Shown here: positions 11,424-61,623 of the stretch, piece by piece
Position numbering within the stretch: position 1 is the first letter of the stretch
How the letters are laid out: each line of letters begins with the position of its first letter
Assembly: GCA_026122225.1 (NCBI GenBank)
Contig: JANEZZ010001410.1
Coordinates: 62,001 to 126,000, forward strand
Reading direction: 5' to 3'
From: Heloderma charlesbogerti
Lineage: Eukaryota; Chordata; Lepidosauria; Squamata; Helodermatidae
DNA length: 64,000 nt
Notes under the pieces: generated by a model
What the model was told of the DNA's origin: nothing
Database searches by the model: none
Seen by the model: only the letters and a program-made list of their open reading frames with translations
Position numbers and translations under genes: made by a program

Positions 11424-12216
11424 TAGGGATGTACAAAAGTCACTTACCTTTTGCGGATTATGTTGATGGTGGGAGGGGAGGTGTTCCGTCCCTGCCCCTG
11501 GAATCCTTGCCGGAGGGGGAGGCACTCCGTCCCTCCCCCCAGGAATCCTCCGTGGCCGGCTGTGCTCTGCGGCAGCTCCGCAGAGCAGCCAGCCAGGCCC
11601 AGCCAGACCAGAGCTGTCCGCAGCCAGATTTCCGGCCGTGGAGGGCTCTGGGTAAAAAAAAAAAACCACGTACGCAAATGGCGGCGGCTACGGCCGCTGC
11701 CATTTGCGTTCCTTATTTTTGCTGTCTTAATCTACGTAAATATTTACGTAGATTATGACGGCGAAAATGAAGGGGAACACAAATAGCGTGGCGGGCGCTA
11801 TTTGCGTCCCTTTTTGATTCACCGCTTTAGCCTACGTAAATATTTATGTAGATTAAGACAGCAAAAATAAGGAATGCATTCACGTACGCGTTTTTGTTTT
11901 TGTTTTAAACCTAGACATGATAGGCTACGTAAAACTTTACGTAGCCTATCATGTCTTTTTTTTTTTTTTTTACAAGCCTGGAAATGGCGGCGGCAGCAGC
12001 CGGTCGGAAGACCAGCCGCCACAGCCGCCGCCGTCAAAGCCTCCGCCACAGCCGCCACTGCCACCCGGAAGATCCGCCACAGGTAAGTCTCGTCCAGGGG
12101 GCGATCCGCGGGGGGGGCAGGGGGGTGGTAGGCCGTTCTGCCACGGAGTTTGGGGGGCCGAATGCACTGGCATTCGGCCTCACCGAGATCCATGGCGGAA
12201 TTCTCTGACATCCGTA
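11424..12216. mobile_element. GATAGGCTA-type foldback hAT-like MITE
   Basis: The termini are TAGGGATGTACAAAAGT and CTGACATCCGTA, with an 8-bp TSD (gacaacag 11416-11423, ggcaacag 12217-12224; 7 of 8). From left: an A-type end with an outward donor (AGGTAAGT on the minus strand, 11442-11449), a GC-rich arm, CAAATGGCGGCGGC inverted pairs, TAGATTA/GTAAATATTTAC hairpins centred at 11745 and 11850, a GATAGGCTACGTAAA hairpin at 11930, a polypyrimidine run ending in ACAAG, an ATGGCGGCGGCAGCAGCC segment, then donor AGGTAAGT at 12081-12088 and a B-type end. No transposase. Confidence 0.85.
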
Positions 12217-12404
12217 GGCAACAGAGGCCTCTGCCACGCTCTTTCCCTGATGACTCCTGCCAAAAGTCCCAACTGCTTCCCCATTCCCCTGTCTCATTCT
12301 CTTTTACCAAAGTTATCCTGTGATTTTCAGCTTGATACCATTAAAAGGTGCTTTCACAACTGCTCTTTGGAACAGCTCTTCATTTGTTTGTTTCTAACCA
12401 TTTA

Positions 12405-13660
12405 GAATAGAATAGTAGAGTTGGAAGGGGCCTATAAGACCATCGAGTCCAACCCCCTGCTCAGTGCAGGAATCCAAGTCAGAGCATCCCTGACAGATGG
12501 CTGTCCAGCCTCATCTTGAATGCCTCCAGTGTGGGAGAGCTCACCACCTCCCTAGGGAATTGGTTCCATTGTCGTATTGCTCTAACAGTCAGGACATTTT
12601 TCCTGATGTTCAGCCAGAATCTGGCTTCCTGTAACTTGAGCCCATTATTCCATATCCTGCATTCTGGGATGATCAAGAAGAGATCCTGGCCTTCCTCTCT
12701 GTGACAACCTTTCAAGGACTTGAAGAGCACTATCATATTTCCCCTCAGTCTTCTCTTCTCAAGGCTAAACATACCAGTTCTTTCATTCTCTCCTCATAGG
12801 GCTTTGTTTCCAGTCCCCTGATCATCTTTGTTGCCTTCCTCTGAACCCTCTCTAGCTTGTCTGCATCCTTCTTAAAGTGCGATGCCTAGGACTGGACACA
12901 ATACTCCAGACGAGGCCTAACCAGTGCTGAGTAGAGGGGAACTAGACTTCCCAGGATTTGGAAGCTATGCTTCTATGAATGCAGCCCAAAAGAGCATTTG
13001 CCTTTTTTTTTGCAGCCACATCACATTGTTGGCTCATATTCAGCTTGTGATCTACAACAAGTCCAAGATCCTTCTTGCTTGTAGTGTTGTTGAGTCACGT
13101 ATCCCCCATCTTGTAACTGTGCATTTGGTTTCTTTTTCCTTGGTGCAGACCTTGGCATTGATCCGTATTAAATTTCATTCTGTTGTTTTCTGCCCAGCAC
13201 TCCAGTCTATCCAGATCACTTTTAATTCTGTTTCTGTCTTCCAAGTTATTAGCTATCCTGCCCAATTTTGTGTCATCTGCAAATTTGATCAGCATTCCCT
13301 GCACCTCCTCATCCAATTCCTTAATAAATATGTTGAAGAGCACTGGGCCCAGGACTGAGCCCTGCAGTACCCCGCTTGTTATCTCTCCCCAGTTTGAGAA
13401 GATCCCACTGATAAGCACTCTGTGAGTCTCATTCTGTAGCCACCTTGTGGATCCACCTGATTGTTGTTTCATCTGGCTCACTTTGAGCTAGTTTGCTCAT
13501 CAGGATATCATGGGGCATTTTGTTGAAAGCTTTGCTGAAGTTGAGGTATATTATGTCCACAGCATTCCCACAGTCCACAAGGGAGGTTACCTGATCAAAA
13601 AAGGAGATCAGATCAGATTCGTCTGGCAGGATTTGTTCTTTGATCTATAAAGACTCCAGG
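12405..13660 (-). mobile_element. CR1 LINE, 5'-truncated, inverted, RT core partly intact
   Basis: Over 13481-13095 the minus strand keeps an open frame of about 128 codons. It contains RT motif B (LQGSVLGPVLFNIF) and motif C with the catalytic pair intact (FADDTKLG), then the E-N-N-R-M-K-F-N segment. Downstream the frame decays into the 3' region, which ends at about 12405 next to the tagagttggaaggggcc motif typical of CR1 3' ends in reptiles. Truncation near 13660 removes the endonuclease and upstream RT, so it cannot move itself. Confidence 0.8.
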
Positions 13661-14140: not shown

Positions 14141-14144
14141 GAAT

Positions 14145-14314: not shown

Positions 14315-14322
14315 CTTTGAAT

Positions 14323-15247
14323 TAGGGATGTGCACTGCTTTGGCCTGAAGCCTGAGTTCTGAGTTGAAGCAGGGTGCTTTGGGCCACTTCGGGCTGCCTC
14401 CAACTTGAGACGGAGGGGGCACGAAATGGCCCGAAGTGAATCGGGGAGTTCTGAAGTGCTTCAGTGTGCTTCAATACAATCCAGAGGCCCAGCTGCCACT
14501 CCGTCGGCCAGCCCAAGGTCTTTACCTGGGTCCTCTGGATGCATGCCAGCAGCTGTCTTGTTCTTCCAGAGGGAGGAGCCATTTCTAAAATGGCTCCTCC
14601 CATTCCCCGGAACAATAAGATGGCTGCCTGTGCATGTCCAGAGGGCCCGGGAGCTGGCAGTGGCAACAGCTCCCCGGCGGCAGCCTGCTCTCCTTGCAAG
14701 CTGCTGCCACTGGCCTCACCCAAGCCAGGAACCCATGAAGGCTTGAGCAGAAGCAGGAGTCGTCCTCCATCCAGGCATCCTCTCCTCCTTGCAAGGAAGG
14801 GAAAGGGAGCAATTGGAGGGGGACTCCTGCCTCTGCCGCCTGACTCAAGCCTTCATGGGCTCCTTCCATGCAAGGAAGGAGGCCACCCAGGCTTGGCAGG
14901 CAGCCGGTGCAAAGAGGGCAGAACAAGTAGTTGGCGGACTGCAACAGTGCTGGCAGCCCCTTCCCCAGTGGCTCCCCCAGCAGCAGCTCCCCTGGAGGCA
15001 GCAGCAGCCGTGGAGGCTCCCCTGCCAGTGGCACCCCCCCCCCATGGAACAAGGGCCCAGGTAAGGAGCTGGGGGCTGGGTGGCATGTTGGGGGGGGCAA
15101 AGCAGGATTCGGGTGTCTGAATCCTGCTTTGGTTTCATAGGCCGAGACGAGTCCCCCCCCCCTCGAATAAGCCCGAGCCAAATGGGCCTGCCTTGGAAGC
15201 CCAGAAGAGGCTTCCAAGTCGGATTTGGGGGTCCATGCACAGCCCTA
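14323..15247. mobile_element. GC-rich foldback hAT-like MITE
   Basis: The termini are TAGGGATGTGCACTG and CATGCACAGCCCTA, with TSD ctttgaat (14315-14322) and gtttgaat (15248-15255). The arms are about 80% inverted copies of each other by eye and GC-rich (gccactggcctcacccaag, caagggaagggg words). Outward donor-like sites lie at both ends: CCAGGTAAAG on the minus strand at about 14519-14528, and CAGGTAAGG at 15058-15066. Interior sequence is unrelated to the GATAGGCTA group. Long GC-rich open frames on both strands are by-products of composition. Confidence 0.8.
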
Positions 15248-15396
15248 GTTTGAATGTACTGTAGAAAAAAGAGTCAAAAGTTCCTGAATAATAATGATGG
15301 TGATCATGATCATGGAGATAATAATAATAATAATAATAATAAAAACAGAAGCTCGAAGAGCTACAGCAAGCTGAGGCAGAAGAGGAAACTGCTGAG

Positions 15397-16792: not shown

Positions 16793-17716
16793 TAGGGATG
16801 TCAGAGAATTTCGCCACGAATCTCGGGGAGGTCGAATGCCAGCGCATTCAGCCCCCTGAAATCAGTGGTGAAACGGTCTGCCACACCCCCCCCGGGATGG
16901 GACTTACCTTGTGCGAATGTCCCTGGTGGAGGTGGCTCCGGCAGCAGTTCGGTGGTGGTGCGGCAGCGGCGGCTGCAGCGGCCGGTCTTCCGACTGGCTG
17001 CCGCCGCCGCCATTTCCAAGTTAAAAAAAAAACAAAAACGTGATAGGCTACGTAAAGATTTATGTAGCCTATCACGGCTAGATTTTTAAAAAACACCGTG
17101 ATAGGCTACGTAAATGTTTACATAGCCTATCACGGCTGAGTGGGGAAAAAAAACCTGTGCGTACGCAAATGGCGGCGCCCATGGGCGCCGCCATTTGTGT
17201 TCCTTATTTGGGCACATGTAGTCTACGTAAACATTTAGGTAGACTACGGCGAAAATAAGGGCAACACTATTTGCGTTCCCCTTATTTTCGCCATAGTCTA
17301 CGTAAATGTTTACGTAGACTACACGTGCCAAAATAAGGAATGCAAATGGCAGCGCCCATGGGCACCGCCATTTGCGTACACGCAGTTTTCTTTTGTTTTT
17401 TCACTCAGCCGTGATAGGCTACGTAAACATTTACGTAGCCTATCACGGCTGACTGCAGGGACACAAACGGCGGCGGCTATGGCCGCCGCCATTTGCGTCC
17501 CGGCCGGCCAGGATTCGTGGCGGAAGGGACGGGGCACCTCCCCCCTTGCCAGAATTTGGGGGGGGAGGGACGGGTGCCTCTCCCCAGCCAGAATTTCTGA
17601 GGGGAGGGATGGGGCGCCTCCCCCCCAGCCAGAATTTCAGGGGGAGGAACGGAGCACCTCCCCCCCCACCGCAAATCAAGTTTCGGGTTCAGGTAAGGGA
17701 CTTTCGTACATCCCTA
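16793..17716. mobile_element. Foldback hAT-like MITE, CR1 insertion 1
   Basis: It runs from TAGGGATGTCAGAGAATTT (B-type end) to TTCGTACATCCCTA (A-type end). The flanks gttgctga (16785-16792) and gtgctgat (17717-17724) are a TSD apart from one lost base. Inside are GATAGGCTACGTAAA hairpins at about 17055, 17118 and 17425, GTAGTCTACGTAAA hairpins at about 17235 and 17305, and inverted CAAATGGCGGC pairs at about 17170-17205 and 17465-17500. A donor on the minus strand (ACTTACCT) lies at about 16909-16916. Confidence 0.85.
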
Positions 17717-18295: not shown

Positions 18296-18979
18296 TAGGG
18301 ATGTCAGAGAATTCTGCCACGGATCCTGGGGAGGCCGAATGCCAGCTCATTCAGCCCCCCAAAATCGGTGGCAGAATGTTCTGCCCCCCCATCCCCCCGG
18401 GATGAGACTTACCTGGGGTGGAACTTCCTGGCGGCGGCTCCGGCGGCGGTTCGGCGGCGGCGGCGGCTGGTCTTCTGACCAGCTGCCACTGCCGCCATTT
18501 CCAGTTAAGAAAAAAAAAAAGACATGATAGGCTACGTAAAGATTTACGTAGCCTATCACGGCTAGGTTTAAAAAAAAAAACGTGATAGGCTTGGTAAATG
18601 TTTACGTAGCCTATCACGGCTGACTTTAAAAAAAAAACACAACGCGCATATGCAAATGGCAGCCGTGACCGCCACCATTTGCGTATGCACATTGTTGTTG
18701 TTGTTTTTTAAGTCAGCCGTGATAGGCTACATAAACATTTACATAGCCTATCACGGCAGACTGCAGGGACGCAAACGGCGGCAGCTACGGCCGCTGCCAT
18801 TTGTGTCCCTGCTAGCCAGTGGACGGATGTCTGGCTGCTGGCGGAGCTGGCTGGCGGCTCCACAGAATCCCTGCAGAGCACAGCCAGCCGGCCAGGATTC
18901 CAGGGGGGGAGGAATGGAGTGCCTCGCCCCCCACCATCAACATAATCCGCAAAAGGTAAGTGACTTTTGTACATCCTTA
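18296..18979. mobile_element. Foldback hAT-like MITE, CR1 insertion 2
   Basis: It runs from TAGGGATGTCAGAGAATTC to TTTGTACATCCTTA. The flanks gatatgcg (18288-18295) and aatctgtg (18980-18987) agree at 5 of 8. The CR1 frame F-R-Y-V-H-S-K-R-Q across the junction supports that this is the original target. GATAGGCTA hairpins lie at about 18545, 18600 and 18735, with inverted ATGGC pairs between. A minus-strand donor lies at about 18408-18415 and a plus-strand AGGTAAGT at about 18954-18961. Confidence 0.8.
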
Positions 18980-19523: not shown

Positions 19524-20265
19524 TGTTGGAGAATTCCGCCATGGATCTCAGTGAGGCCAAATGCCAGTACATTCGGCCCCCCAAAATCCATTGTGGAACG
19601 AAGACTGCCCGCCCCCACACCCCATGAAAGGCGCACGAAACGGGACACCCACCTGCTGCCGTTTGTGCTGCTTTGCGAATGGTGGCCACCATTTGCTTCT
19701 TCATCATAGCCGTGATAGGCTACTTAAATACTTATGTAGCCTATCACAGCTAACGCAGGGATGCCATTTGCGTTCCCTTTTTTTTGGCCGTGATAGCCTA
19801 CATAAATATTCACATAGCCTATTACAGCAAAAGAGAGGGGTGCAAATGGCATAGTGGCTGCCATTTGCGCTCATCTCTTTTGCCGTAATAGGCTACGTAA
19901 ATGTTTACATAGCCTATCACGGACAAAAAAAAAGGGAATGCAAATGGTGGCTGCCATAGCCACTGACATTTTTGTTCACTGTTTTGTTTGTTTTTTGCCA
20001 TGATAGGCTACGTAAATGTTTACGCAGCCTATCATGGCAAAATACAGGGACACAATTGCGGGGGCTACGGCAGCCACCACTTGCGTCCCTGTGCAGGCTG
20101 CCCAGCAGCTGGATGTCCAGCTGCGGGCGGCCCCGGCCAGTAGCTCCATAGAATCGCCACGAAGTGGAGCCGGCTGGAGAGAATTTCGGGGGGAGGGACG
20201 GAGAGCCTCCCCCCCCACCACGAATGTCACCCTTCGAAAAGGTAAGTGAATTTCGTACATCCCTA
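19524..20265. mobile_element. Foldback hAT-like MITE, CR1 insertion 3
   Basis: The left terminus has lost the first bases and part of the TSD (it starts TGTTGGAGAATTCCGCC). The right terminus TTCGTACATCCCTA is intact, followed by attcatca. The upstream flank keeps atttca. The CR1 G-F sequence resumes after it. GATAGGCTACxTAAA hairpins lie at about 19735, 19810, 19895 and 20020, with inverted CAAATGG pairs. A plus-strand AGGTAAGT lies at about 20239-20246. Confidence 0.75.
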
Positions 20266-20670: not shown

Positions 20671-21567
20671 TAGGGATGTACGAAACTCACCTTTTCACGG
20701 AATCTTTCATGGTGAGGGGGGACGTGCTCCATCCCTCCCCCCGGAATCCTTGATGGGGGGGAAGCCGATCCGGTCCTCCACCCCGGAATCCTCAATGGCT
20801 GGTGGTTCCCCCAGTGGTGGCTCCGTCGGTGGCAGCTCTGGCGGCGGCGGTGGCGGCTCCGGCGGTGGCAGCGGCTGGTCTCCTGGCTGGCAATGGCCGA
20901 GCTGCTGCCGCCGCCATTGCCATCCTGGCTTGCAGCTGTGATAAGGTACATAAGAATTTACGTAGCCTATCACGGCTGGGTAAAAAGAAAACAGCCAGCA
21001 TACACAAATGGCAGCGGCTACGGTGGCCGCCATTTGCGTTCCCTATTTTTCGCTGATTTATCTTACATAAATATTTACGTAAGATAAAACAGCAGAAAAA
21101 AGGGGAATGCAAATAGCGCCCACTACGCTATTTGCATTCCCCTTTTTTTCGCCGTTTTATCTTACGTAAATATTTACGTAACATAAATGGGCAAAAAATA
21201 GGGAACGCAAATGGCGGCTGCCATAGCCTCCGCCATTTGCGTATGCTGGGTGTTTTTTGTTTTTTTATTACCCAGCCGTGATAGGCTACATAAATTCTTA
21301 AGTACCCTATAACGGCTGCAAGCCAGGACTGCAATGGCAGCAGCAGCAGCCCGGCCGCTGCTGGCCAGGAGACCAGCCACCGGAGCTGCTGCTGCCGCTG
21401 CCGGAGCTGCCGCCGCCACCGCCAAATCTGCCCCAGGTAAGTACCATCCCGGGGGGATTCTGTGGGGGGACGGGTGGCAGGAGGACGTTCTGCTACAGAT
21501 TCCGGGGGCCGGATTCTAAAGAATCCGGCCTCACTGGAATCCATGGCGGAATACTCCGCCATCCCTA
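20671..21567. mobile_element. Foldback hAT-like MITE, CR1 insertion 4
   Basis: A perfect 8-bp TSD tggaagac (20663-20670, 21568-21575) fixes both ends: TAGGGATGTACGAAAC and CGCCATCCCTA. The long inverted arms contain glycine-codon-like GGCGGC runs, inverted CAAATGGCGGC pairs, TTATCTTACGTAAATATTTACGTAAG-type hairpins centred at about 21070 and 21170 (a TTAC core instead of GATAGGCTA), and flanking GATAGGCTA or related hairpins at 20960 and 21290. Donors face outward at both ends: AGGTGAGT on the minus strand at 20685-20692, and AGGTAAGT on the plus strand at 21435-21442. Confidence 0.95.
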
Positions 21568-21712: not shown

Positions 21713-22257
21713 TAGGGATGTCAGAGAATTTCTCCATGAATCTCGGGGAGGCCAAATGCCAGCGCACTTGGCCCCCCGAAATTGGTGGGGAAATGGTCTG
21801 CCCCCCTGCCCCCCCCCCGGGACAGGGCTTACCTTGCTCAAATGTCCCTGGCGGCATCAGCTCCAGCACGGTTCGGCAGCGGTTCGGCGACAGCAGCGGC
21901 GGTGGCCAGTCTTCTAACCGGCTGCCACCGCTGCCATTTCCAAGTTAAAAAAAAACAAAAACAAACAAACGTGATAGGCTACGTAAAGATTTATGTAGGC
22001 TATCACAGCTAGATTTTTTAAAAAACACCGTGATAGGCTACGTAAGCATTTACGTAGCCTATCACAGCTGACTACAGGGACGCAAATGGTGGCGGCTACG
22101 GCCGCCGCCATTTGCATCCCAGCAGGAGATGTGGTTTCGCGGCCAGAGGGATGGGGCACCTCCCCCCCAGCCAGAATTTCGGGGGAAGGGACAGAGCACC
22201 TCCCCCCCACCACAAAGCAAGCATCAGGATCAGGTAAGGGACTTTAAACCATCCCTA
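21713..22257. mobile_element. Foldback hAT-like MITE, CR1 insertion 5
   Basis: Perfect TSD ggcgatac (21705-21712, 22258-22265). A B-type left end (TAGGGATGTCAGAGAATTT) is joined to a right end GTAAGGGACTTTAAACCATCCCTA. It is a short copy with two GATAGGCTACGTAA hairpins (about 21985 and 22050) and one inverted CAAATGG(T/C)GGCGGC pair at 22083-22120. Confidence 0.95.
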
Positions 22258-22447: not shown

Positions 22448-23050
22448 TAGGGATGGTGGAGAATTTCTCCTCGAAACTTCGGGGGGCCGAGGGCCAACGT
22501 GTTCGGCCCCCCGAACAAGTTTCGGGGAGAAATTCTCCGCACCCCCCCACCCCCCGCAGCCCCCCTGGGACGGGACTTACCTTTGTCGAATGTCCCTCCC
22601 GGCGGCAGGTCCGGCCGGCAGTTCGGCGGGTGTTCGTCCGGGGCGGGAGCGGCAGCCGGTCTTTTGACCGGCTGCCGCCGCCGCCGCCATTGCAATAAAA
22701 GAAAAAAAAAACGCCCCCGTGATAGGCTACGTGACAATTAACATAGCCTATCATGGCTGACTTTGCAGATCTAGCCGTGATAGGCTACGTTAATCATCAC
22801 GTAGCCTATCGCGGAGGCGTTTTTTTTTTTTTAAACTTTTGAGTTCGCGGCTGGGCGAGGCGAGGCGCCTCCTCCCCGGCCTGAATTTCGGCCGGGCGAG
22901 GTGGGAAGCCTCCCCCCCGGCCTGAATTTCGGCTGGGCGAGGTGGGAAGCCTCCCCCCCCGGCCTGAACTTTGCAGGGGGAGCAGCGAAGCGCCTCCCCC
23001 CCACCGCGAACAAGCTTCGAGGACAGGTAAGTGACTTTCGTCCACCCCTA
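22448..23050. mobile_element. Foldback hAT-like MITE, CR1 insertion 6
   Basis: Perfect TSD gattaggc (22440-22447, 23051-23058). The ends TAGGGATGGTGGAGAATTT and TTCGTCCACCCCTA mark the B/C-end subfamily shared with 38546, 45161 and 60530. Two adjacent hairpins (about 22740 and 22795) have GATAGGCTACGTGA or related arms. The right arm is tandem GAGGCGGGAAGCCTCC-like GC hairpins. Minus-strand donor at about 22578; plus-strand AGGTAAGT at about 23025-23032. Confidence 0.95.
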
Positions 23051-24616: not shown

Positions 24617-24960
24617 TAGGGATGTATGAGAAATTCATTACAGTTCATTTTTGATCAGGATTTTACTCAGTTTGCACCTTCTGGACCAAACGTAGACTCG
24701 GGCGGAATTTGTGGTTGAAGTTCGTACATTTCTGAGCTTGCAGTGTGATTTGTGGACCAAGAAAAATGCATTTGACAGCATGTCCAGCTCTGAAAAACAT
24801 GTACTTTTGAAAAATTCATGGAAATATGCTTTAATCAATGGGAGATGAATGGGCAGATTTCAAAGATGCTGACAACTGATGCATACATTAAAAAAATACA
24901 CACAGAAATACAGATGAAAGAGAGAAAAGCAGAGCTCACAATCTGATACACACTTGAGTC
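24617..24960. mobile_element. MITE of the TATGAGAAATT family, left part
   Basis: It begins TAGGGATGTATGAGAAATTC and shares tttttgatcaggatttta and ttgcaccttctgga words with 4002 and, inverted, with 2830-2906 and 57190-57267. No matching right end found nearby. Confidence 0.55.
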
Positions 24961-26379: not shown

Positions 26380-26523
26380 GATCTTCTTCTTCTTCTTCTT
26401 CTTCTTCTTCTTCTTCTTCTTCTTCTTCTTCTTCTTCTTCTTCTTCTTCTTCTTCTTCTTCTTCCTCCTCCTCCTCCTCCTCCTCCTCCTCCTCCTCCTC
26501 CTCCTCCTCCTCCTCCTCCTCCT
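26380..26523. repeat. (CTT)n then (CCT)n microsatellite
   Basis: About 28 CTT units followed by about 20 CCT units form an uninterrupted polypyrimidine strand of about 145 bp. Poly-Lys, poly-Arg and poly-Gly open frames here are artefacts. Confidence 0.95.
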
Positions 26524-26544
26524 CTTTTGAGGTTTTCTGAACTG

Positions 26545-29015: not shown

Positions 29016-30241
29016 ACAATGACAGCCAGCGATAGGGTAATGGTGGCAGCCGCCATTACTGTACCGTCTAGTATAGGCAGTAAAGCCTTGAGTTTACCTA
29101 ATTGCAGCCATTTACAGCCCTATTTAGGTAAAAAAAACAAACAGCGCTTTACAGCCACAAGTGGTGTCCACTATGTCATTTGCGGCTGTATTTCTCCCAG
29201 CAGTATGGTAATGGCAGCTGCTATTACCGTATCGCCTGTAGGGATGTACGAAAGTCACTTACCTTTTACGAAATTTGATTCGCGGTGGGGGGAGGCGCTC
29301 CGTCCCTCCCCCCCCGAAATTTTGGCTGCGGGGGAGGCGCCCTGTCCCTTCCCCCTGAAATTCTGGCCAGGGGGGAGGCGCCCTGTCCCTTCCGCCGTGA
29401 ATCCTGGCCGGCTGGGTCTGCAAAAGGCGGCAGTAGCCGCCACCATTTGCGTCCCTGCAGTCAGCCGTGATAGGCTACGTAAATGTTTATGTAGCCTATC
29501 ATGGCTGAGTTAAAAAAAAAAAAAGCACGTACACAAATGCACGTGTAGTCTACATGTCTGGCACGTGTAGACGTGTAGTCTGGCATGTCTGGCACATGTA
29601 GTCTACACGTCTGGCCGCGTTTGGCACGTCTAGTCTACGTAAACATTTATGTAGACTACGGCGAAAATAACGGGAATGCAAATAGCGTAGACAGTATTGG
29701 CGCCGCCATTTGCGTACGTGTGGGTCTTTGTTTTTTTTTTAACTCAGCTGTGATAGGCTACGTAAACATTTATTTAGCCTATCACAGTATTTTTTAAAAG
29801 TCTAGCCATGATAGGCTACGTAAATCTTTACATAGCCTATCATGTTGGGGGGGGGGTTAAACTTTGAAATGGCGGTGGTGGCACCCGGTCGGAAGACTGG
29901 CCGCCGCAGCTGCCGCCGCCAAATGGCCACCGAACCGCCACCGGAGCCGCCGCCGCCAGGGAGATTCGCCCAAGGTAAGTCCCATCCCGGGGGGGCGGGG
30001 AGGGCAGACCGTTTTGCCACCGATTTCGGGGGGCCGAATGCACTGGCATTTGGCCTCCCCGAGATTCATGGCAAAATTCTCTGACATTCCTAATCGCCTG
30101 TGCTATGGAGCTGGAGTTACGTTCCGAGGGAAATCCTCTGGACATGGAGGTAAGTTGTACCGTTCTGCCACAGATTCCGGAGGCCGGATTCCAAAGAATC
30201 CAGCCTCATTCGAGACCGCAGCAGAATTCTCCAACATCCCT
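29016..30241. mobile_element. Older foldback element split by a younger one
   Basis: Outer parts are about 29016-29238 and 30101-30241. The outer left part has arms (GTAATGGTGGCAGCCGCC, TTTACAGCC) of the CCGTAAATGGC subtype. The outer right part has donor GAGGTAAGTT at about 30148-30157 and ends CCAACATCCCTA at 30241. The left terminus is degraded, and no TSD is seen for the outer copy. Confidence 0.6.
29239..30092. mobile_element. GATAGGCTA-type foldback hAT-like MITE, nested
   Basis: Perfect TSD atcgcctg (29231-29238, 30093-30100); ends TAGGGATGTACGAAAGTC and CTGACATTCCTA. Hairpins: GATAGGCTACGTAAA at about 29485, 29775 and 29825; GTCTACGTAAA at about 29645. A short tandem amplification of an ACGTGTAGTCTAC-like unit fills 29540-29640. 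Donors: minus-strand ACTTACCT at about 29259, plus-strand AGGTAAGT at about 29973. Confidence 0.95.
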
Positions 30242-30780
30242 AGTCAGGACTCACTGCAAGCCCAATTGAGCCCAGCTGCATAATGGCAGGAGGGCTAAAT
30301 ACTTCTGCAGCAACTTCCACTAATTATCTTGAACATCTGCCTCAGATTTGTGGGAGCATACCTTCATAATTCACCATCAGAATCTGGATATTTCTGGAAT
30401 TTGTCAGCAACTCTACAGCTCATGCCTCCCCTTTTTTTCTTAACACCCAACAGGATTTGAGCCTTGCTTTTAAAAAGATGTGCAAGCTGAAAACATGAAG
30501 AAAACCTGCTATAATAAGATATTAAGTATCACATCTGTGCAGTGAAGGGGAGGTCTACAGAAGACAATCCAGACTGTAGGTACTCACACAGCCTTATTCC
30601 AACTGCTTTAATTTCTCATTCTTTCCTTTTGTTAAAATATTATTTAAAATAAATTAAACTGAGCCAACACCTCTGTGCATTATTTAATAGCTGTTAATGT
30701 CATTCATAATAATTACTGGAATAGCCAACATACCATTCTAATTGTCTTAATTGTAGATCGTTAGTTATTGCAACCACAAT
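30242..30780. other. No recognised feature
   Basis: AT-rich unique-looking sequence. Confidence 0.35.
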
Positions 30781-31267
30781 TAGGGATGGCGGAGAATTCT
30801 GCCATGGATCCCACTGAGGCTGGATTCTAAAGCATTTGCCCCCCACCCGAGTCCATGGCAGAACGGACAACTTACCTCCGCCTCCCTGCGGAATCCTCTT
30901 CGGCCGGATCCTCCGGCTCTGGAGCACCAGTGATACAGCCGCCATGCATATCGCTGTCTGAGGAGTATTGACTGCAGATGCAAATGGCATCCAGGACACA
31001 ATTTGCAGCCATAAAGGTCTTAGTTTAAGGTAAATGCAGCCGTAAATGGCTGCATTTAGCTTAAACTAAGACCTTTACGGCCGCAAATGGTGTAGTGGAT
31101 GCCATTCGCGTCTGCAGTCAATACCCTTCAGCCAGTGATACGGCAATGGCGGCTGTACTGCTAGCACTTCAGAGCTGGCCAGTGACTCTGCAGAATCGCA
31201 GTGGAGCGGAGCCAGAAGAAGAGGATTCCAGGGGAGAAACGGATCGCCTCCCCCCAAGGGTGGATTC
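30781..31267. mobile_element. Foldback MITE, CCGTAAATGGC subtype
   Basis: It starts TAGGGATGGCGGAGAATTC. A long hairpin centred at about 31043 carries GCAAATGG and CCGTAAATGGCTGCATTTA. A minus-strand donor ACTTACCT lies at about 30869. Its right end abuts the next element at 31268, so no clean terminus or TSD remains. Confidence 0.65.
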
Positions 31268-32079: not shown

Positions 32080-32197
32080 CAGGTAAGTCCCATCTGGGGG
32101 AGGGTGGGGGCCCATTCCGCCACCAATTTCAGGGGGCCGAATGAGCTGGCATTTGTCCTCCCCGAGATCCACGGCAGAACTTCCGTACATCCCTACA
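32080..32197. mobile_element. Detached B-type end of a foldback MITE
   Basis: It begins directly at CAGGTAAGTCCCATC and runs to CCGTACATCCCTA. It is the same as the last 120-130 bp of B-ended copies such as 12080-12216, without the rest of the element. Confidence 0.65.
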
Positions 32198-32430
32198 ATC
32201 CATGTGCTCCAGACTCTCAGCATTCAATAGAGCAAGTTTCAAAAAGTAGTAGTCCGAAAGTAAGTGGATTGTAGCCTGAAGATGAACAAGAATAACGTAA
32301 TTCTTGGCCCTGCAATTCCGGAATGATCTCCCTGAGGAGGCCTGCCTGGTGCCAACACTGTTATCTTTCAGCACCAGATCAAGACTTTGTCTTTTCCCAG
32401 GCATTTGGGAGCATGTGGTGAGTTTTCATT
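32198..32430 (+). mobile_element. L2-type LINE 3' fragment, copy 1
   Basis: It contains the L2-type ORF2 end L-R-N-D-L-P-E-E-A, with R-L-C-L-F-P at the C-terminus. It is about 90% identical by eye to 46673-46895, starting in both at the atccatgtgctccagact motif. Confidence 0.65.
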
Positions 32431-41646: not shown

Positions 41647-42713
41647 TAGGGATGTACAAACCCACCACTGTCTGGTCCAGGGGAGGTGTCCATGGAGGGG
41701 CAATTCTGTCTGCTCAGGGCCCTGCAGAATCCTGTGGAGCCCAGCTGCATCTGCCAGAGTTGTCAGAGTGGCTCTCCAGCTCCCTATAAGATGCAATATG
41801 CTAATGGCAGCTGCCATTAGCCTATCGCGGGGAAACTACAGTTGTAAATGGTGTATTGTACACCATTTGTGGCTTTAAAGCACTGACTTTGACCTAAATT
41901 GTAGCTGTTTATGGCTGTATTTCAGTCAAAGTCAGTGCTTTACAGCTGCAAATGTTGTACAATATGCCATTTATGGCTGTAACTTTCCTGCAATAAACTG
42001 AAGGCAGCTGCCATTAGCTTAATGCAACTTACAGGGAGCCGGTGAGCTGCCCCATGGGAACTACTCTGGACCTGGAGGTAGGGATGTACGAAAGTCACTT
42101 ACCTTTTGCGGATTATGTTGATGGTGGGGGGGGGAGGTGCTCCGTCCCTCCCCCCAGAATCCTGGATGGGGGGGAGGCGCTCCGTTCCTCCCCCCAGGAA
42201 TTCTGGCCAGCCGGCTGTGTTCTGCAGGGATTCTGCGGAGCCGCCGGCCAGCTCCGCCAGCAGCTGGACATCCGGCTGCTGGCTAACAGGGACGCAAATG
42301 GCGGCGGCCGTAGCCGCTGCACTTTGCTTCCCTGCAGTCAGCCGTGATAGGCTACGTAAATCTTTACATAGCCTATCACGTCTTTTTTTTTTTTTTAACT
42401 GGAAATGGCGGTGGCGGCAGCCGGTCGGAAGACCGGCCACCGCCGCCAAACCGCCGCCGGAGCCGCCGCCGGAGCCGCCGCCGCCAGGAAGATCCGCCCC
42501 AGGTAAGTCTCATCCTGGGGGGGGGCAGACCGTTCTGCCACCGATTTTGGGGGGCCGAATGCACTGGCATTCGGCCTCCCCAAGATCCATGGCGGAATTC
42601 TCTGACATCCCTACCTGGAGGTAAGTGTAGCAGCTCCTCTGTGGACTTCAGAGGTTGGATTCTTTGGAATATGGCCTCATTTGAGTCCGCAGCGGAATCC
42701 TCCAGCATCCCTA
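41647..42713. mobile_element. Foldback hAT-like MITE, CCGTAAATGGC subtype, with a nested copy
   Basis: Perfect TSD gtttccag (41639-41646, 42714-42721); ends TAGGGATGTACAAACCC and CCAGCATCCCTA. A hairpin at about 41840-41990 carries GTAAATGG and GACTTTGACxTAAAT arms. AGGTAAGT at 42619-42626. It is interrupted by the element at 42079-42613. Confidence 0.9.
42079..42613. mobile_element. GATAGGCTA-type foldback hAT-like MITE, nested
   Basis: Perfect TSD cctggagg (42071-42078, 42614-42621); ends TAGGGATGTACGAAAGTC and CTGACATCCCTA. It has one GATAGGCTACGTAAA hairpin at about 42365, a polypyrimidine run, then ATGGCGGTGGCGGCAGCC and donor AGGTAAGT at about 42501-42508. A minus-strand donor is at about 42096-42103. 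The insertion lies within the outer copy's own donor motif. Confidence 0.95.
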
Positions 42714-44442: not shown

Positions 44443-46286
44443 TAGGGATGGGGGAGAATTTCTACCTGAAACTTCGGGGGGCAGAGTACCAACACATTCG
44501 GCCCCCCAAAATCGGCGGTGAAATTCTCCGCCCCCCCACCCCACCCCCGGGATGGGACTTGCCTTTTACGAATGTCCCTCCCGGTGGCGGGTCCCGGTGG
44601 CGGTTCGTCGGGTCTTCATCAGGGGTGGGGGCGGCAGCCGGTCTTTCGACCAGCTGCCACTGCCGCCATTACAAGGAAAGTAAAACAAAAACAAAAACCC
44701 CGTGATAGGCTACGTAACGATTAACGTAGCCTATCACGGCTAGATCTCCAAAGTCAGCCGTGATAGGCTACGTTAATCCTCACGTAGCCTATCACGGGTG
44801 ACTTTGAAAAAAATAAAGCATGTATGCAAATGGCGGCCCCCATAGAGAGCCGCCATTTGCATTCCTTATTTGGTCCCTGTAGTCTACATAAAGATTTACG
44901 TAGACTACGGCGAAAATAAGGGCAACACAAATAGCGTTGCCCTTATTTTCGCAGTAGTCTATGTAAATCTTTACGTAGACTACAGGGACCAAAAAAGGAA
45001 CGCAAATGGCGGCTCCCTATGGGGGCCGCCATTTGTGTATGCGCTTTTTTTTTTTTTCAAAGTCACCCGTGATAGGCTACGTGATGATTTACATAGCCTA
45101 TCACGGCTGACTTTGGAAATCTAGCCGTGATAGGCTACGTAAATCGTTATGTAGCCTATCTAGGGTTGGCGGAGAATTTCTCCCCGAAACTTCGGGGGGC
45201 CGAGCGCCAACGAACAAGTTTTGGGGAGAAATCCTCTGAACCCCTCCCGTCCCCTGCACACAACCCCCGGGACGGGACTTACCTTCACCGAATGTCCCTC
45301 CCGGTGGCTGGTCCGGCCGGCGGTTCGGCGGGTGTTCGAGCGAGGCGGGAGCGGCAGCCGGTCTTTCAACTGGCTGCCGCCGCCGCCATTGCAATGAAAT
45401 AAAAAAAGAAACGCCCCCTGATAGGCTACGTGACGATTCACGTAGCCTATCATGGCTAGATTTGCAAAGTCAGCCATGATAGGCTACGTCAATTGTCACG
45501 TAGCCTATCACGGGTGACTTTAAAAAAAAAAAAAGTGTGTACGGATAATGGCGGCCCCCATAGGGAGCCGCCATTCCCCTTCCTTATTTGGTCACTGTAG
45601 TCTACGTAAAGATTTACGTAGACTACGGCGAAAATAAGGGCAACGCTATTTACGTAAACATTTACGTAGACTACAGCGACTAAATAAGGAACGCGAATGG
45701 CGGCTCCCTATGGGGGCCGCCATTAGTGTACGCGCTTTTTTTTTAAGTCACCCGTGATAGGCTACGTGATGATTGACGTAGCCTATCACGGCTGACTTTG
45801 CAGATCTAGCCGTGAAAGGCTACGTGAATCGTCACGTAGCCTATCAGGGGGCGTGTTGTTGGTTTTTTTTAACTTTCGCGTTTGCGGCCGGGCGAGGCGG
45901 GAAGCCTCCTCCCCGGCCTGAATTTCGGCCAGGGTGAGGCGGGAAGCCTCCCCCCCGGCCTGAATTTCAGCCGGGGTGAGGCGGGAAGCCTCCCCCTCCG
46001 GCCTGAACTTCGCGGGGGGACCAGCGAAGTGCCTCCCCCCCACCGCGAACGTCCTCCGAGGACAGGTAAGTGACTTTCGTCCACCCCTAAGCCTATCATG
46101 GGCGTGGGTTTTTTTTTTTTTTTTGCAGCCGGGTAGATGGGGCACTTCTACCCGGCCTGAATTTCGCGGGCGAGGGATGGGGCGCCTCCCCCCCCCTCGC
46201 ATGAACTTCGGGGGGAGAAGCGAAGCGCCTTCCCCCCACCACGAAGCAAGCTTCGAGGACAGGTAAGGGACTTTCGTCCATCCCTA
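44443..46286. mobile_element. Foldback hAT-like MITE with a nested copy
   Basis: Perfect TSD atggttgg (44435-44442, 46287-46294); ends TAGGGATGGGGGAGAATTT and TTCGTCCATCCCTA. The outer parts hold hairpins at about 44720, 44785, 45090 and 45145 and GTAGTCTACxTAAA hairpins at about 44890 and 44965. The nested element 45161-46089 breaks the last right-hand hairpin (its target agcctatc is part of the GATAGGCT stem). Confidence 0.95.
45161..46089. mobile_element. GATAGGCTA-type foldback hAT-like MITE, GTGA subfamily, nested
   Basis: Perfect TSD agcctatc (45153-45160, 46090-46097); ends TAGGGTTGGCGGAGAATTT and TTCGTCCACCCCTA. Hairpins with GATAGGCTACGTGA or close arms at about 45435, 45495, 45780 and 45835. 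Donors face outward at both ends: ACTTACCT (minus) 45277-45284, AGGTAAGT (plus) 46064-46071. The right arm has three tandem GC hairpin units (45890-46000). Confidence 0.95.
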
Positions 46287-46294: not shown

Positions 46295-46672
46295 TTGGGA
46301 AACTCGGATAGCCACTAGCAGTGTCTGGTGACAAGGGTATAATTCTGCCACATGCCCCAGTTACCTTTGCAGAGTTTGATATGGATGGATGAACTCATCG
46401 GCTCCTACACTGCACACCACTCACCAGAGACCCACTGGCTGCCTGCCCCTCCTCGCTGTGCAATGTGAGCCACCAGGCCATCTGTGGGTGCTCAGCAAGT
46501 GGCGCATGGCCACCCAATCCCTCACCAAGCCACCATTGTATGTAAAAGTAGCTGTTCTGCCTCCCTGCAGAATCCTCTTCAGCCAGATCCACTGGATTCA
46601 TTTGGCGATGGGGGAGGTTATCTTACCCTTAGATAAATAATCCAAATATGTTTCTCTTTTACAATTTTGGTC
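46295..46672. other. No recognised feature
   Basis: Unique-looking sequence. Confidence 0.3.
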
Positions 46673-46895
46673 AATCCATGTGCTCCAGACTCAGCATTCA
46701 ATAGAGCAAGTTTCAAAAAGTAGTAGTCTGAAGGTAAGTGGATGGTAACCTGAAGATGAACAAGAATAATGTAATCCTTGGTCCTGCAATTCCGGAATGA
46801 TCTCCCTGAGGAGGCGTGCCTGATGCCAACATTGTTATCTTTTGGCACCAGGTCAAGACTTTGTCTTTTCCCAGGCATTTAGCAGCATGTGATGA
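46673..46895 (+). mobile_element. L2-type LINE 3' fragment, copy 2
   Basis: Second copy of 32198-32430; the shared part begins at atccatgtgctccagact and ends near cccaggcattt. Confidence 0.65.
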
Positions 46896-47040
46896 ATCAT
46901 AAAGCAGCCATTTATGCAAGATTACAGGCATAAATTGACCATTTACGCCCGTAATCTTGCATGAATGGCACATTTACAGCCGCTATTTGCATAAATGGGG
47001 ATTTGCAAATAAAGGCTGAGGTGCCATTTTTATGTAAATA
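46896..47040. repeat. Foldback palindrome
   Basis: AGCCATTTATGCAAGATTAC pairs with GTAATCTTGCATGAATGGC; outer TTTGCATAAATGG words continue the hairpin. Termini not seen. Confidence 0.55.
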
Positions 47041-47083: not shown

Positions 47084-47633
47084 TAGGGATGTACGAAAGT
47101 CACTTACCTTTTGCGGATTATGTTGATGGTGGGGGGGAGGCGCTCCGTCCCTCCCCCTGGAATCCTGGATGGGGGGGGAAGGCACTCCTTTCCTCCCCCC
47201 CAGAATCCTGGCCGGCTGGCTGTGCTCTGCAGGGATCCATTTGCGTACGCGCGGGTTTTTTTTTTTTTTTAAGTCAGACGTGATAGGCTACGTAAAGATT
47301 TATGTAGCCTATCACGGTTTTTTTTTTAAAACCTAGCCGTGATAGGCTACGTAAATCTTTACGTAGCCTATCACGTGTTTTGTTTTTAAAACTGGAAATG
47401 GCGGCGGCGGCAGCCGGTCGGAAGACCAGCCTCCACAGCCTCTGCAGCCGCCGCCGCTGAACTGCCGCCGGAGCCACCGCCAGAGCCACTGCCACCAGGA
47501 AGATCCACCCCAGGTAAATCTCATCCCAGGGGGGGCGGGGGGGGGCAGACCGTTCTGCCACCGATTTTGGGGGGCCAAATGTGCTGGCATTCGGCCTCCC
47601 CAATATCTGTGGCAGAATTCTCTGACATCCCTA
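47084..47633. mobile_element. GATAGGCTA-type foldback hAT-like MITE
   Basis: Perfect TSD cctgaatc (47076-47083, 47634-47641); ends TAGGGATGTACGAAAGTC and CTGACATCCCTA. Two hairpins at about 47300 and 47355, then ATGGCGGCGGCGGCAGCC. The minus-strand donor is intact at about 47100-47107; the right one is mutated to AGGTAAAT at about 47513. Confidence 0.95.
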
Positions 47634-50495: not shown

Positions 50496-50938
50496 TAGGG
50501 ATGTAGGTGAAATTTGTCCAGTATTTTCACACTCTTGAACCAACATATGAACCCCAAAACTCAGTTATCCATTGAAATTCACACTTTTCCAAATTTGCAA
50601 TGGAGTTCTCCAATAAAAAAAGTATACCAAAAACTGTACCTTAAGGGAAAGTGCACACAAAAATGCATACACTCATGAAAATAACATGCAAAAATGCATT
50701 ACATTAAGAAAATTGTTTCCAGAAAATCTGTATATTAGGCGAAATTGTGCACAAAATGCATATATTAGGAGAAATGCCCACCAAAATGCATTTGAACTTT
50801 TATGTGAACTTTTTTCTTCAAAGTTAGGGATGATCAAAATTTAAGATTGGTAAAATTCTCACAGTACAAAATGAACCAAATTTAAGATTGGAAAAATAAA
50901 CTGACAGAAACTGAAACTGACAGGTTTGCCCATCCCTA
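50496..50938. mobile_element. AT-rich hAT-like MITE
   Basis: Ends TAGGGATGTAGGTGAAATT and TTTGCCCATCCCTA with TSD ttggaaag (50488-50495) and ttgggaag (50939-50946). The interior has tandem-like aaaatgcatacattaag words; no donor-like motif and no CpG-rich arm were seen. Confidence 0.75.
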
Positions 50939-53592: not shown

Positions 53593-53629
<37 letters not shown>

Positions 53630-56860: not shown

Positions 56861-56869
56861 CCTTCTACA

Positions 56870-57267
56870 TAGTGATGTGCAAATCAGCAAAAGTCCAGCT
56901 CGCAGAAGTTCTTCGAATTCCATCTTGAAGCTCGTTCCAACAGGAGTCTGTATCAGACTGTGAGCTTTGTTTTGCTTGTTTTTTTCCTCATGAAAATCCA
57001 TGCGCATTTCTGCGCATGTTTATTTCCAAATGTACACATCAATTGTGCACATTATTAAAAATACACTCATTTTGAAATTTATGCATTCTTGAAATGTACA
57101 CATGCTGTAAAACATAGGGATTTTTGGTCTGTGAATCACACTGCAAGCTCAGACATGTATGGACTTTGACGATAGACAGTGTCTGAGTCCGTGTTCAGAC
57201 CAGAAGGTGAGAAATGGGTAAAATCCTGATCAAAAATGAACTGAAACAAATCTCTCATACATCCCTA
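56870..57267. mobile_element. MITE of the TATGAGAAATT family, near complete
   Basis: Starts TAGTGATGTGCAAATCAGC and ends CTCTCATACATCCCTA, with TSD cttctaca (56862-56869) and cttccacg (57268-57275), 6 of 8. It links the partial copies at 2240, 4002 and 24617 to an 8-bp TSD family. Confidence 0.65.
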
Positions 57268-57438: not shown

Positions 57439-58000
57439 AAGTGTTGATGTGGGCTCCCGTCTCAGTCCAGGATACTGGTGGACTGCCCGTGCCTGCTGAG
57501 CCACCCCCACCGAGCCTCTGTCCCCAGTTGACCCCCTCCCATGCTTGCCGAGCCACCCACACTTACCCAGCCCCTTTCTGCCTCCGTCGCTATCACCATG
57601 TTTTGAAAAAACATGGCAATTGCAATACTGTACCCATAGACTTATACACAAAGTGGCACCCTGAATCTTGCATATATGGGCAATTCATGGCACCATTTTA
57701 TGTATATGTCTATGTGCACATTTTTCACACATAGTCTTATATGCAAAATGGCACTGTGAATCTGCCATATACACACGATAAATGGTGCCATTTTGCATAT
57801 AAGTCTATTGGTACAGTATTTTGATGGCCATGTTTTTTTAAAACATGGTGATAGCGACGGAGATGGATAGGGCCTGGGTAAGTATGGGCAGCTCAGCAAG
57901 CAGGCATGCATCTTGAGTGCAGGTCTGGAGATGCAGAAGTGGGGCAGGGGCTAGGTGGGCACCTGGAGAACCTGGGTGGGGGGGCACCCAGGTATCCCTA
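57439..58000. mobile_element. Foldback hAT-like MITE with GTAAGT at both ends
   Basis: Perfect TSD ctcaaaat (57431-57438, 58001-58008). Ends AAGTGTTGATGTGGGC and CCAGGTATCCCTA. Arms of about 280 bp pair around hairpins with ACCATGTTTT/AAAACATGGT, ATAGACTTATA and GGCACC words. GGGTAAGT occurs facing outward on both sides: minus strand 57561-57568, plus strand 57876-57883. The interior shares nothing with the GATAGGCTA group. Confidence 0.85.
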
Positions 58001-58008
58001 CTCAAAAT

Positions 58009-59076: not shown

Positions 59077-59084
59077 GCTGAGGG

Positions 59085-59971
59085 TAGGGATGGACAAAAG
59101 TCACTTACCTGATCCCGAAGCTTGCTTCGCAGTGGGGGGGAGGTGCTCCATCCCTCCCCCCCAAATTCTGGCCGGGGGGGAGTCGCCCCGTCCCTCCCCG
59201 CCAAAATTCTGGCCGAGGGGGGAGGTGCCCCGTCCCTCCCCGCCGAAATTCTGGCAGGGGGGGAGGTTCCCCGTCCCTCCGGCCGCGAAACATCGTCTCC
59301 TGCCGGGACGCAAATGTTTGCGTCTCTGCAAATGTTTGCGTCCCTGCAGTCCGCCGTGATAGGCTACATAAATGTTTACGTAGCCTATCACGGCTGACTT
59401 AAAAAAAAAAAAGCGTGTACGCAAATGGCAGCATCCATGGGTGCCGCCATTTGCATTCCTTATTTTTGCCCTCTTAATATATGTAAATATTTACGTAGAC
59501 TATGATGGCGAAAATCAAGGGGAACGCAAATAGCGTAGCAGGTGCTATTTGCGTCCCTTTTCAATTCCCCATTTTAGCCTACATAAATATTTATGTAGGC
59601 TAAAATGGGGAATCGAAAAGGGACGCAAATAGCACCCGCTACGCTATTTGCGTTCTCCTTTATTTTCGCCGTCATAGTCTACGTAAATATTTACATAGAT
59701 TAAGACAGCCAAAAATAAGGAACATTTGCTTACGCGGGGGGGGGGTCCCAGAGCCTTCCGCGGCCGGAAATCCGGCTGCGGACAGCTCCGGCCTGGCTGG
59801 GCCTGGCTGGCTGCTCTGCAGAGCTGCCGCGGAGCACAGCCGGCCATGGAGGATTCCGAGGGGGAGGAAGGGATCCCCTCCCTGCCGTCGAGGATTCCAG
59901 GGGGAGGGACGGAACACCTCCCCCCCATGAACATTATCTGTGGAAAGGTAAGTGACTTTCGTACATCCCTA
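59085..59971. mobile_element. Mosaic GATAGGCTA-type foldback MITE
   Basis: A C-type left end (TAGGGATGGACAAAAGTC, donor ACTTACCT minus strand at about 59102-59109) and an A-type right end (TTTCGTACATCCCTA, donor AGGTAAGT at about 59945-59952). The flanks gctgaggg and cataaaat do not match. Hairpins: GATAGGCTACATAAA at about 59375; TAGCCTACATAAA at about 59590; others at 59495 and 59690. Probable recombinant. Confidence 0.8.
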
Positions 59972-59984
59972 CATAAAATACAAT

Positions 59985-61623
59985 TAGGGGTGCACAAAAG
60001 CCACTTACCTGGTCTTGCAGCTTGCTTCGTGGTGGGGGGGAGGCGCTTCGCTGCTCCCTCCGAAATTCAGGCCGGGGAGGGAGGCTTCCCGCCTCACCTG
60101 GCCGAAATTCAGGCCGGGGGGGAGGCGCCTCGCCTCACCCGGCCGCGAAATCAAAAGTAAAAAAAAAAAAACGCCCCCGTGATAGGCTACGTTACGATTA
60201 ACGTAGCCTATCACGGCTAGATCTGCAAAGTCAGCCGTGATAGGCTACGTGAATCGTCACGTAGCCTATCACAGCTGACTTAAAAAAAAAAAAAGCACGT
60301 ACGCAAATGGCGGCCCCCATAGGGAGCCGCCATTCGCGTTCCTTATTTGGTCGCTGTAGTCTACGTAAATCTTTACGTAGACTACAGTGAAAATAAGGGC
60401 AACGCAAATAGCCTATCATGGGGGTGTTGTTGTTTTTTTTACTTTTATTGGAATGGTGGCGGCGGCAGCCGGTCAAAAGACCGGCTGCCGCCTCTGCCCC
60501 TGTCGAAGACCTGACGAACCGCCACCGGGTAGGGTTGGCGGAGAATTTCTTCCCGAAACTTCGGGGGGGCCGAGCGCCAACGTGTTCGGCCCCCCGAACA
60601 AGTTTCGGGGAGAAATCCTCCGAAACCCCCCCGCCCCCCGCACACCCCCCAGGACAAGAGTTACCTTCACCGAATGTCCCTCCCGGTGGCGGGTCCGGCC
60701 GGCGGTTCGGCGGGTGTTTGAGCGGGGCGGGAGTGGCAGCCGGTCTTTCGACCGGCTGCCGCCGCCACCATTGCAATCAAAGAAAAAAAAAACGCCCCCT
60801 GATAGGCTACGTGACGATTCACGTAGCCTATCACGGCTAGATTTGTAAAGTCAGCCGTGATAGGCTACGTCAATCGTCACGTAGCCTATCACGGGTGACT
60901 TAAAAAAAAAAAAAAAAGCGCGTACGGATAATGGCGGCCCCCATAGGGAGCCGCCATTCCCGTTCCTTATTTGGTCGCTGTAGTCTACGTAAATGTTTAC
61001 GTAGACTACGGCAAAAATAAGGGCAACGCTATTTTCGCCGTAGTCTACGTAAACATTTACGTAGACTACAGCGACCAAATAAGGAACGGGAATGGCGGCT
61101 CCCTGTGGGGGCCGCCATTATCCGTACGCGCTTTTTTTTGTTTTTTTTTAAGTCACCCGTGATAGGCTACGTGACGATTGACGTAGCCTATCATGGCTGA
61201 CTTTGCAAATCTAGCCGTGATAGGCTACGTGAATCGTCACGTATCCTATCAGGGGGCGTTTTTTTTTAAAAAAAAAACTTTCGCGTTCGCGGCTGGGCAA
61301 GGCGGGAAGCCTCCTCCCCGGCCTGAATTTCGGCCGGGGCGAGGCAGGAAGCCTCCCCTCCGGCCTGAATTTCGTGGGGGGAGCAGCGAAGCGCCTCCCC
61401 CCCACTGCAAACGTCCTTCGACGACAGGTAAGGGACATTCATCCACCCCTACCGCCGGGACCCGCCGCCGGGAGGGACATTAGGGAAAGGTAAGTCCCGT
61501 CCCAGGGGGGGTGCGGGGGCAGGGGGGTGTGCGGAGAATTTCTCCCCGAAACTACTTTGGGGGGCCAAACACGTTGGCACTCGGCCCCCTGAAGTTTCGG
61601 GGAGAAATTCTCCCCCATCCCTA
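59985..61623. mobile_element. GATAGGCTA-type foldback hAT-like MITE with a nested copy
   Basis: Perfect TSD aatacaat (59977-59984, 61624-61631); ends TAGGGGTGCACAAAAGC and TTCTCCCCCATCCCTA. Hairpins at about 60195 and 60255, a GTAGTCTACGTAAA hairpin at about 60370; a deletion or half-hairpin at about 60410. Minus-strand donor ACTTACCT at about 60002; plus-strand AGGTAAGT at about 61487. Split by 60530-61451. Confidence 0.95.
60530..61451. mobile_element. GATAGGCTA-type foldback hAT-like MITE, GTGA subfamily, nested
   Basis: TSD ccaccggg (60522-60529) and ccgccggg (61452-61459), 7 of 8; ends TAGGGTTGGCGGAGAATTT and TTCATCCACCCCTA. Four hairpins with GATAGGCTACGTGA/GTCA arms (about 60815, 60875, 61180, 61235), and GTAGTCTACGTAAA hairpins at about 60990 and 61050 around the centre. 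Donors: AGGTAACT minus strand 60659-60666; AGGTAAGG plus strand 61426-61433. Confidence 0.9.

Follow-up and report, generated by a model that had tools for sequence, protein, structure and literature searches.

Many short repeated elements in a stretch of the genome of Heloderma charlesbogerti carry near their ends a motif which resembles a 5' splice site (5'ss, or donor) and points out of the element. The question raised by this locus is whether such a motif is kept for a role in RNA or for some other reason. The stretch analysed here, called the window, comprises 64,000 nt (assembly GCA_026122225.1, contig JANEZZ010001410.1, positions 62,001–126,000, forward strand). The outward donor-motif pattern in these hAT elements was confirmed, and it is strong.

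The DNA of the window looks like that of a vertebrate, and its CR1-like long interspersed element sequence gives it a reptilian character. Self-comparison of the window revealed about 20 strongly repeated blocks. Element tips (TAGGGATG and CATCCCTA) form a short terminal inverted repeat of the hAT type, the consensus of which we take to be YARNG. Target site duplications (TSDs) of 8 bp with at most one mismatch flank 19 tip pairs, 13 of them perfectly, compared with 0.3 expected from a shifted control; two of these pairs (4692 and 50496) belong to other families without donors. As ten long open reading frames taken from the elements matched no Pfam family, the elements look nonautonomous, and no Rfam family was found in the window at gathering thresholds. 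The donor-bearing elements are classified, from these sequence features, as nonautonomous hAT-type transposons.

These elements were assigned to families F1 to F4. F1 elements have two unlike ends, a B end starting with TAGGGATGTACGAAAGTCACTTACCT and an A end starting with TAGGGATGTCAGAGAATTCC followed by a hairpin. F2 (including 30781, 41647, 54129, 62863, and the end at 8488) has an A-type end related to the F1 A end, and BLAST comparison of nine representative elements (E ≤ 0.01) linked F1 with F2. F3 consists of 34560–35071 and, tentatively, 57439–58000, and F4 of 14323–15247. Apart from one 19-bp match between F1 and 34560, neither F3 nor F4 matched other representatives at this cut-off. 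The initial annotation had claimed that 34560, 57439, and 14323 share little else than the motif; indeed, 34560 did not match 57439, nor did 14323 match any other representative, at E ≤ 0.01. The two F3 members are weakly alike: with a looser cut-off, their best match (22 bp, 86%, E 0.010) contains the donor, which differs at +3 (GTGAGT vs. GTAAGT). In F4, the donor surroundings are alike in both arms.

Candidate donors were scored with a human 5'ss matrix; an acceptor matrix and a human donor profile are used below. Forty-three sites in the window score at least 11, 40 of which lie within the element footprints (22.8 kb, drawn partly by eye) and three in the other 41.2 kb; the corresponding first-order Markov means are 1.5 and 3.35. 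All 40 sites in footprints point outward (39 by script, plus 30150, whose label 'IN' is an artefact of a fragment footprint, as this donor points to its tip at 30242). Among 62 ends of donor families, 53 have an outward donor scoring at least 8.5 and four an inward one, and at a score of at least 11 the numbers are 41 and none, in line with the earlier claim that donors point outward near one or both ends in many copies. Nine ends stay below 8.5, namely R28776, L41647, L54129, R34100, L35114, L38546, L44443, R54616, and L14323; L44443 has a GC-type site, AAGGCAAGT, and the site of L14323 (score 7.9) lies just beyond the scanned 200 bp. As a control, 20 other TAGGGATG tips gave three outward donors and one inward donor of at least 8.5 and none of at least 11. 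No outward donor of at least 6 was found in the element pairs 4692–5112 and 50496–50938, both with good duplications; therefore, a donor is not a requirement of TAGGGATG tips in themselves.

Exact matches on both strands of the whole window numbered 30 for AGGTAAGT, four for AGGTGAGT, four for GGGTAAGT, and ten for AGGTAAGG. The first number is the same as that estimated initially (about 30 on either strand), but since the copies are related these are not independent events. Ten of the twelve donor positions first quoted were as described or within one base. Of the other two, the 8-mer at 34655 (minus) is GGGTGAGT, and the site at 14519 (minus) is CAGGTAAAG (14520–14528), which is weaker than the motifs listed. 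The distance from donor to tip is about 20–25 bp for most of the B ends and 38 bp for one of them; it is 93–135 bp for most of the A-type ends, 56 bp for a single one, and roughly 100–200 bp in F3 and F4. Within the terminal 150 bp, AGGTAAG is the best 7-mer shared by the two kinds of F1 ends, being present in 11 of 15 A ends and 22 of 25 B ends; for comparison, the tip CATCCCT is present in 10 and 18 of these ends, respectively.

To describe conservation within the motif, changes from CAGGTAAGT were counted at 60 of 63 end sites (L38546, R34100, and L54129, in which the site is deleted or absent, were excluded). Only five changes fall on the three positions −1 to +2, compared with 29 on the four positions +3 to +6, and GT is kept in 57 sites and AAGY in 40, although some of these sites had been picked by donor likeness, which favours such an outcome. 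Position +3 is always A or G (51 and 9 sites) and position +6 is T, G, or C (47, 9, and 4 sites). The rank correlation with the human 5'ss profile was 0.98 over the 60 sites, but it has the same weakness, and we set it aside as main evidence. Over four alignment-defined groups, the information content is 1.1–1.9 bits at −2 to +6, 0.36 at −3, and 0.61 at +7, a drop to which anchoring on the donor contributes. A further comparison covered 15 A ends and 25 B ends of F1, leaving aside four B-type and all A-type ends of F2 as well as several damaged F1 A ends. Among the 25 B ends, AGGTRAG is kept in 23 and AAGT in 15.

The donor also differs in location between related subfamilies. Among 28 A-type ends, one of which is an internal fragment, a donor of at least 8.5 is present only at position U in 18 (F1), at position D in five (F2), and at neither in five, namely R34100, L35114, and L38546 (broken or deleted), L44443 (GC type), and R54616 (7.5 at D). 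One of the five ends with a donor at D, R42713, scores 11.7 there and 8.4 at U. With end 21567, the A end of element 20671–21567, as F1 reference, ungapped comparison of two F2 ends gave best offsets with 39 and 40 matches over 75 positions (runners-up 29 and 30; medians 21 and 20). F1 has GGTGGCAGG at the place of the F2 donor, with its own donor located 39 nt further inward. Judging from these alignments, the homologous positions at which F1 and F2 keep the donor are not the same. What can be read directly from the letters of the window is the motif with its strength and polarity, its recurrence, and this difference in position.

Because AGGTRAG is better kept than AAGT in F1 B ends and changes avoid G/GT, we tentatively favour, at not quite an even chance, the reading that the motif may be a 5'ss kept for a role in RNA, as a target of U1 in RNA leaving the element. 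Transcription starting within the element, or entry through one of its internal acceptors, would give an RNA in which the last donor of the element is joined to a downstream acceptor of the host, and U1 bound at the donor could also protect the exiting RNA from early polyadenylation. With a donor at both ends, this would work in either orientation. We infer that U1 may bind the motif, that splicing may use it, that a promoter might be located inside the element, and that the element might benefit. The initial annotation had proposed that functional need keeps the donor, so that host transcripts could splice out in either orientation. The near-consensus 5'ss, the outward polarity at both ends, the differing interiors, and the shifted place in F1 and F2 are consistent with that proposal, in which splicing, or selection for it, is still the conjectural part. 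A broader version, which we consider rather doubtful, is that a vertebrate hAT lineage has been selected at the element level for one outward 5'ss per end, re-created elsewhere when lost, such that each insertion in either orientation would be a U1-docking exit feeding element-started or read-through RNA into host splicing.

Since splicing out of the element requires that RNA starts inside or enters an internal acceptor, upstream acceptors were scored. Of 44 donors, 23 are preceded at 25–300 nt on the outward strand by an acceptor-like site of at least 9, compared with nine of 44 when the reverse strand of these stretches is scored; therefore, an internal exon is possible in about half of the cases. 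Twelve of the 21 elements checked have no AATAAA on either strand. With regard to a possible CpG-island promoter, the observed/expected ratio of CpG is 0.65–1.26 in 14 F1 elements, 0.12–0.59 in seven others, and 0.29 outside. The predicted accessibility of 31 donors has a mean percentile of 0.64 (Kolmogorov–Smirnov P-value = 0.003 against a uniform distribution) and is high in most F1 A ends.

Several observations weigh against an RNA role. In 50 alignment-defined sites, the rank correlation with the human profile is 0.55 and is tied with that of a one-base shift. Six of the 60 sites score below 8.5, and three further ends have no site. Of the palindrome CpGs, 36 are intact and 32 changed, a decay that argues against a strong unmethylated promoter. 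Accessibility is mixed, as four F3 donors have low values (0.05–0.36), and the idea that the donor is generally displayed in an unpaired loop was rejected on the basis of these predictions. No constant reading frame leading to the donor was found across 12 F1 A ends. Donor turnover amounts to one switch between two subfamilies rather than many independent ones. An exit-side donor, unlike an entry-side one, offers no obvious benefit in being tolerated by the host. Moreover, the Hermes transposon, whose outward AAGT repeats and paired site near the tip may be parallel features, predicts identical polarity.

The literature on Hermes is indeed the strongest counter-argument to a splice signal, and the transposase-binding subterminal repeat, named beforehand in the initial annotation as the refuting alternative, is live. 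According to this explanation, the BED finger of a cognate hAT transposase would recognise the motif in DNA, and its likeness to a donor would be coincidental or incidentally used; we regard it as a strong rival, little less probable than the role in RNA. In a study of Hermes (PMC10368747), the BED domain binds AAG(T/C), and the subterminal repeats (STRs) beyond STR1 are antisense at the left end (STR2–7) and sense at the right end (STR1–5), that is, mostly outward in our terms. The same text describes a quasi-palindrome, or paired site, within bp 11–27 of the left end, with discussion of bases A16–T22, and states that 150–220 bp of end sequence are needed by Hermes and Tol2. Similarly, AAGT-n-ACTT is present in 14 of 25 F1 B ends (the partner ACTT alone in 17), always at bp 14–22, and one half of it coincides with +3 to +6 of the donor. 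Over the last 60 bp of the B ends, AAGY amounts to 1.40 outward (0.53 expected) and 0.92 inward (0.27 expected). In contrast, A ends have no clear excess (outward 0.40 vs. 0.24 expected in 60 bp, 1.33 vs. 1.08 in 220 bp), and AAGT is less well kept than the longer core, AGGTRAG, as described above. Hermes has 17 and 14 copies at its two ends, whereas here one prominent copy per end is seen, often with a changed AAGT. In addition, we estimate that a DNA-binding motif is unlikely to match the 5'ss consensus by chance.

Two further explanations appear less probable. The motif may be inherited baggage which one or two ancestral ends happened to carry and which no function maintains. Copies are related within a subfamily and single copies decay (GAAAGT, ATAAGT, GTAACT), as such a history would predict, but the different homologous positions in F1 and F2, the lack of BLAST matches (with one short exception) between F3/F4 and F1/F2, and the little that the four alignment-defined groups share just outside −2 to +6, which donor anchoring itself favours, make it improbable. 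It is very improbable that the donor is part of a mobile coding exon or an introner-like intron, that is, of a coding or excisable unit. In seven of 12 F1 A ends, the frame is open from the nearest ATGG(C/T)GG to the donor; however, phases differ between these copies and the other five contain stops, and the candidate of a mobile coding exon was rejected accordingly. A protein search with one A-side frame gave no match at E ≤ 0.01 among 45 candidates. Moreover, with its donor on the exit side, an element cannot be excised as an intron by sites of its own. A recursive splice site was rejected as well, as the 3' splice site score at the donor's own AG is not high (median −1.15 for 26 donors; −1.88 for all AG, with a 90th percentile of 5.1).

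If the donors work as proposed in the RNA reading, a family of short elements would scatter strong, orientation-independent exit splice sites and could readily supply first exons and cassette exons that are new. In the alternative case of transposase sites, a transposase-binding motif would mimic a 5'ss. The positions of individual elements are listed in table 1.

Table 1. Donor-bearing elements and ends in the window, with their duplications and outward donors.
Family	Position	TSD	Donors (strand)	Remarks
F2	8394–8488		GAGGTGAGT 8394–8402	A-type end (+); outside the range of the initial annotation
F1	11424–12216	GACAACAG/GGCAACAG	11442–11450 (−), 12080–12088 (+)	B end left, A end right
F4	14323–15247	CTTTGAAT/GTTTGAAT	CAGGTAAAG 14520–14528 (−, score 7.9), CAGGTAAGG 15058–15066 (+)	
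F1	16793–17716	Imperfect	16902–16910 (−), 17690–17698 (+)	Surroundings presumably a CR1-like long interspersed element (by eye)
F1	18296–18979	Unclear	18407–18415 (−), 18953–18961 (+)	
F1	20671–21567	TGGAAGAC, perfect	AAGGTGAGT 20685–20693 (−), CAGGTAAGT 21434–21442 (+)	
F1	21713–22257	GGCGATAC, perfect	21827–21835 (−), 22231–22239 (+)	
F1	22448–23050	GATTAGGC, perfect	22575–22583 (−), 23024–23032 (+)	
F1	29239–30092	ATCGCCTG, perfect	29257–29265 (−), 29972–29980 (+)	
F2	30147–30242		GAGGTAAGT 30147–30155, position D	Lone A-type end (+)
F2	30781–31267		GAGGTAAGT 30870–30878 (−), position D	Part of an element, with an A-type end on the left; the homologous place in F1 reads GGTGGCAGG
F3	34560–35071	CTCAAAGT, perfect	AGGGTGAGT 34655–34663 (−), CAGGTGAGT 34933–34941 (+)	
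F2	41647–42713	GTTTCCAG, perfect	GAGGTAAGT 42618–42626 (+), right end	Left end only GTGGTGGGT (6.5)
F1	42079–42613	CCTGGAGG, perfect	42097–42105 (−), 42500–42508 (+)	Nested in 41647–42713 at its right-end donor
F1	44443–46286	ATGGTTGG, perfect	AAGGCAAGT (GC-type), left A end; CAGGTAAGG, right B end	Contains nested 45161–46089
F1	45161–46089	AGCCTATC, perfect	45277–45285 (−), 46063–46071 (+)	Nested
F1	47084–47633	CCTGAATC, perfect	47102–47110 (−), CAGGTAAAT 47511–47519 (+)	
F3 (tentative)	57439–58000	CTCAAAAT, by eye	TGGGTAAGT 57561–57569 (−), 57875–57883 (+)	Left tip not TAGGG
F1	59985–61623	AATACAAT, perfect	60003–60011 (−), 61487–61495 (+)	Contains nested 60530–61451
F1	60530–61451	CCACCGGG/CCGCCGGG	AAGGTAACT 60659–60667 (−), CAGGTAAGG 61425–61433 (+)	Nested
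F2	62863–63270		GAGGTAAGC 62948–62956 (−), position D	A-type left end; right end CAGGTAGGG

By reading, F1 interiors (e.g., 16993–17510 and 19740–20100) are near-perfect palindromes chained from CGTGATAGGCTACGTAAA and CGCAAATGGCGGC units. CGGCGG occurs 5.8 times per kb in 14 F1 elements and 0.26 times per kb in seven others; CGG-binding proteins derived from hAT have been described (PMC8097297). In A-type ends (e.g., 12120–12216), the outer 90 bp or so form an imperfect hairpin between donor and tip with the core GGCCGAATGC-CAGT-GCATTCGGCC, and hairpins in the corresponding place were also seen by eye in F3 ends. With regard to nested insertions, the TSD of 42079–42613 (CCTGGAGG) overlaps the GAGGTAAGT of its host element, and the eight bases after the tip at 32079 (32080–32087) are CAGGTAAG, a second nested insertion sitting on a donor. 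As two of about four nested insertions sit on donors, an insertion preference for the motif is possible.

An AT-rich family of greater age, whose tips resemble TAGGGATGTATGA, is present at 2752–2906, 4002–4225, 24617–24851, and 57100–57267; copy 57267 has an outward AAGGTGAGA at 61 bp and copy 4002 has AAGGTGAAA at 60 bp. Outside the elements, reading of the sequence revealed a duplicated stretch (32200–32420 and 46670–46900), whose copy at 46734 contains AAGGTAAGT, one of the three strong sites outside the footprints, and a long (CTT)n/(CCT)n simple repeat at 26380–26530.

Among the titles and openings of abstracts listed in a literature search, with capped lists and few subscription papers, none described hAT elements in which both ends have outward donors. 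Several known systems are comparable in part. Introners, as described in a survey (PMC9860276), are likewise DNA transposons with splice signals, and that survey reports no pattern of gain in vertebrates; introners become introns, whereas the elements described here have exit-side donors only (40 of 40 strong sites in footprints). L1 and Tigger gene traps, which are held down by SAFB, similarly contain RNA-processing signals able to trap host transcripts. Unlike the short elements studied here, with donors near their tips, they are long and autonomous, with coding regions and polyadenylation sites (PMC10901741). Maize Ac/Ds, especially Ds1, is similar in that it is a hAT system with 8-bp duplications, nonautonomous members, and donors near the ends. 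According to one report (PMC5432752), Ds is biased to providing donors, two of which were functional by reverse transcription PCR in tobacco and rice, and those of Ds1 are found at 12, 22, and 33 bp from the tip. These Ds1 donors are, as we understand that text, inward, so that an exon ends soon after RNA enters the element. In the window, donors that incoming RNA would meet near an end are found at 0 of 62 ends at a score of at least 11 and at four of 62 at a score of at least 8.5, and the donors known from the sequence point outward at both ends.

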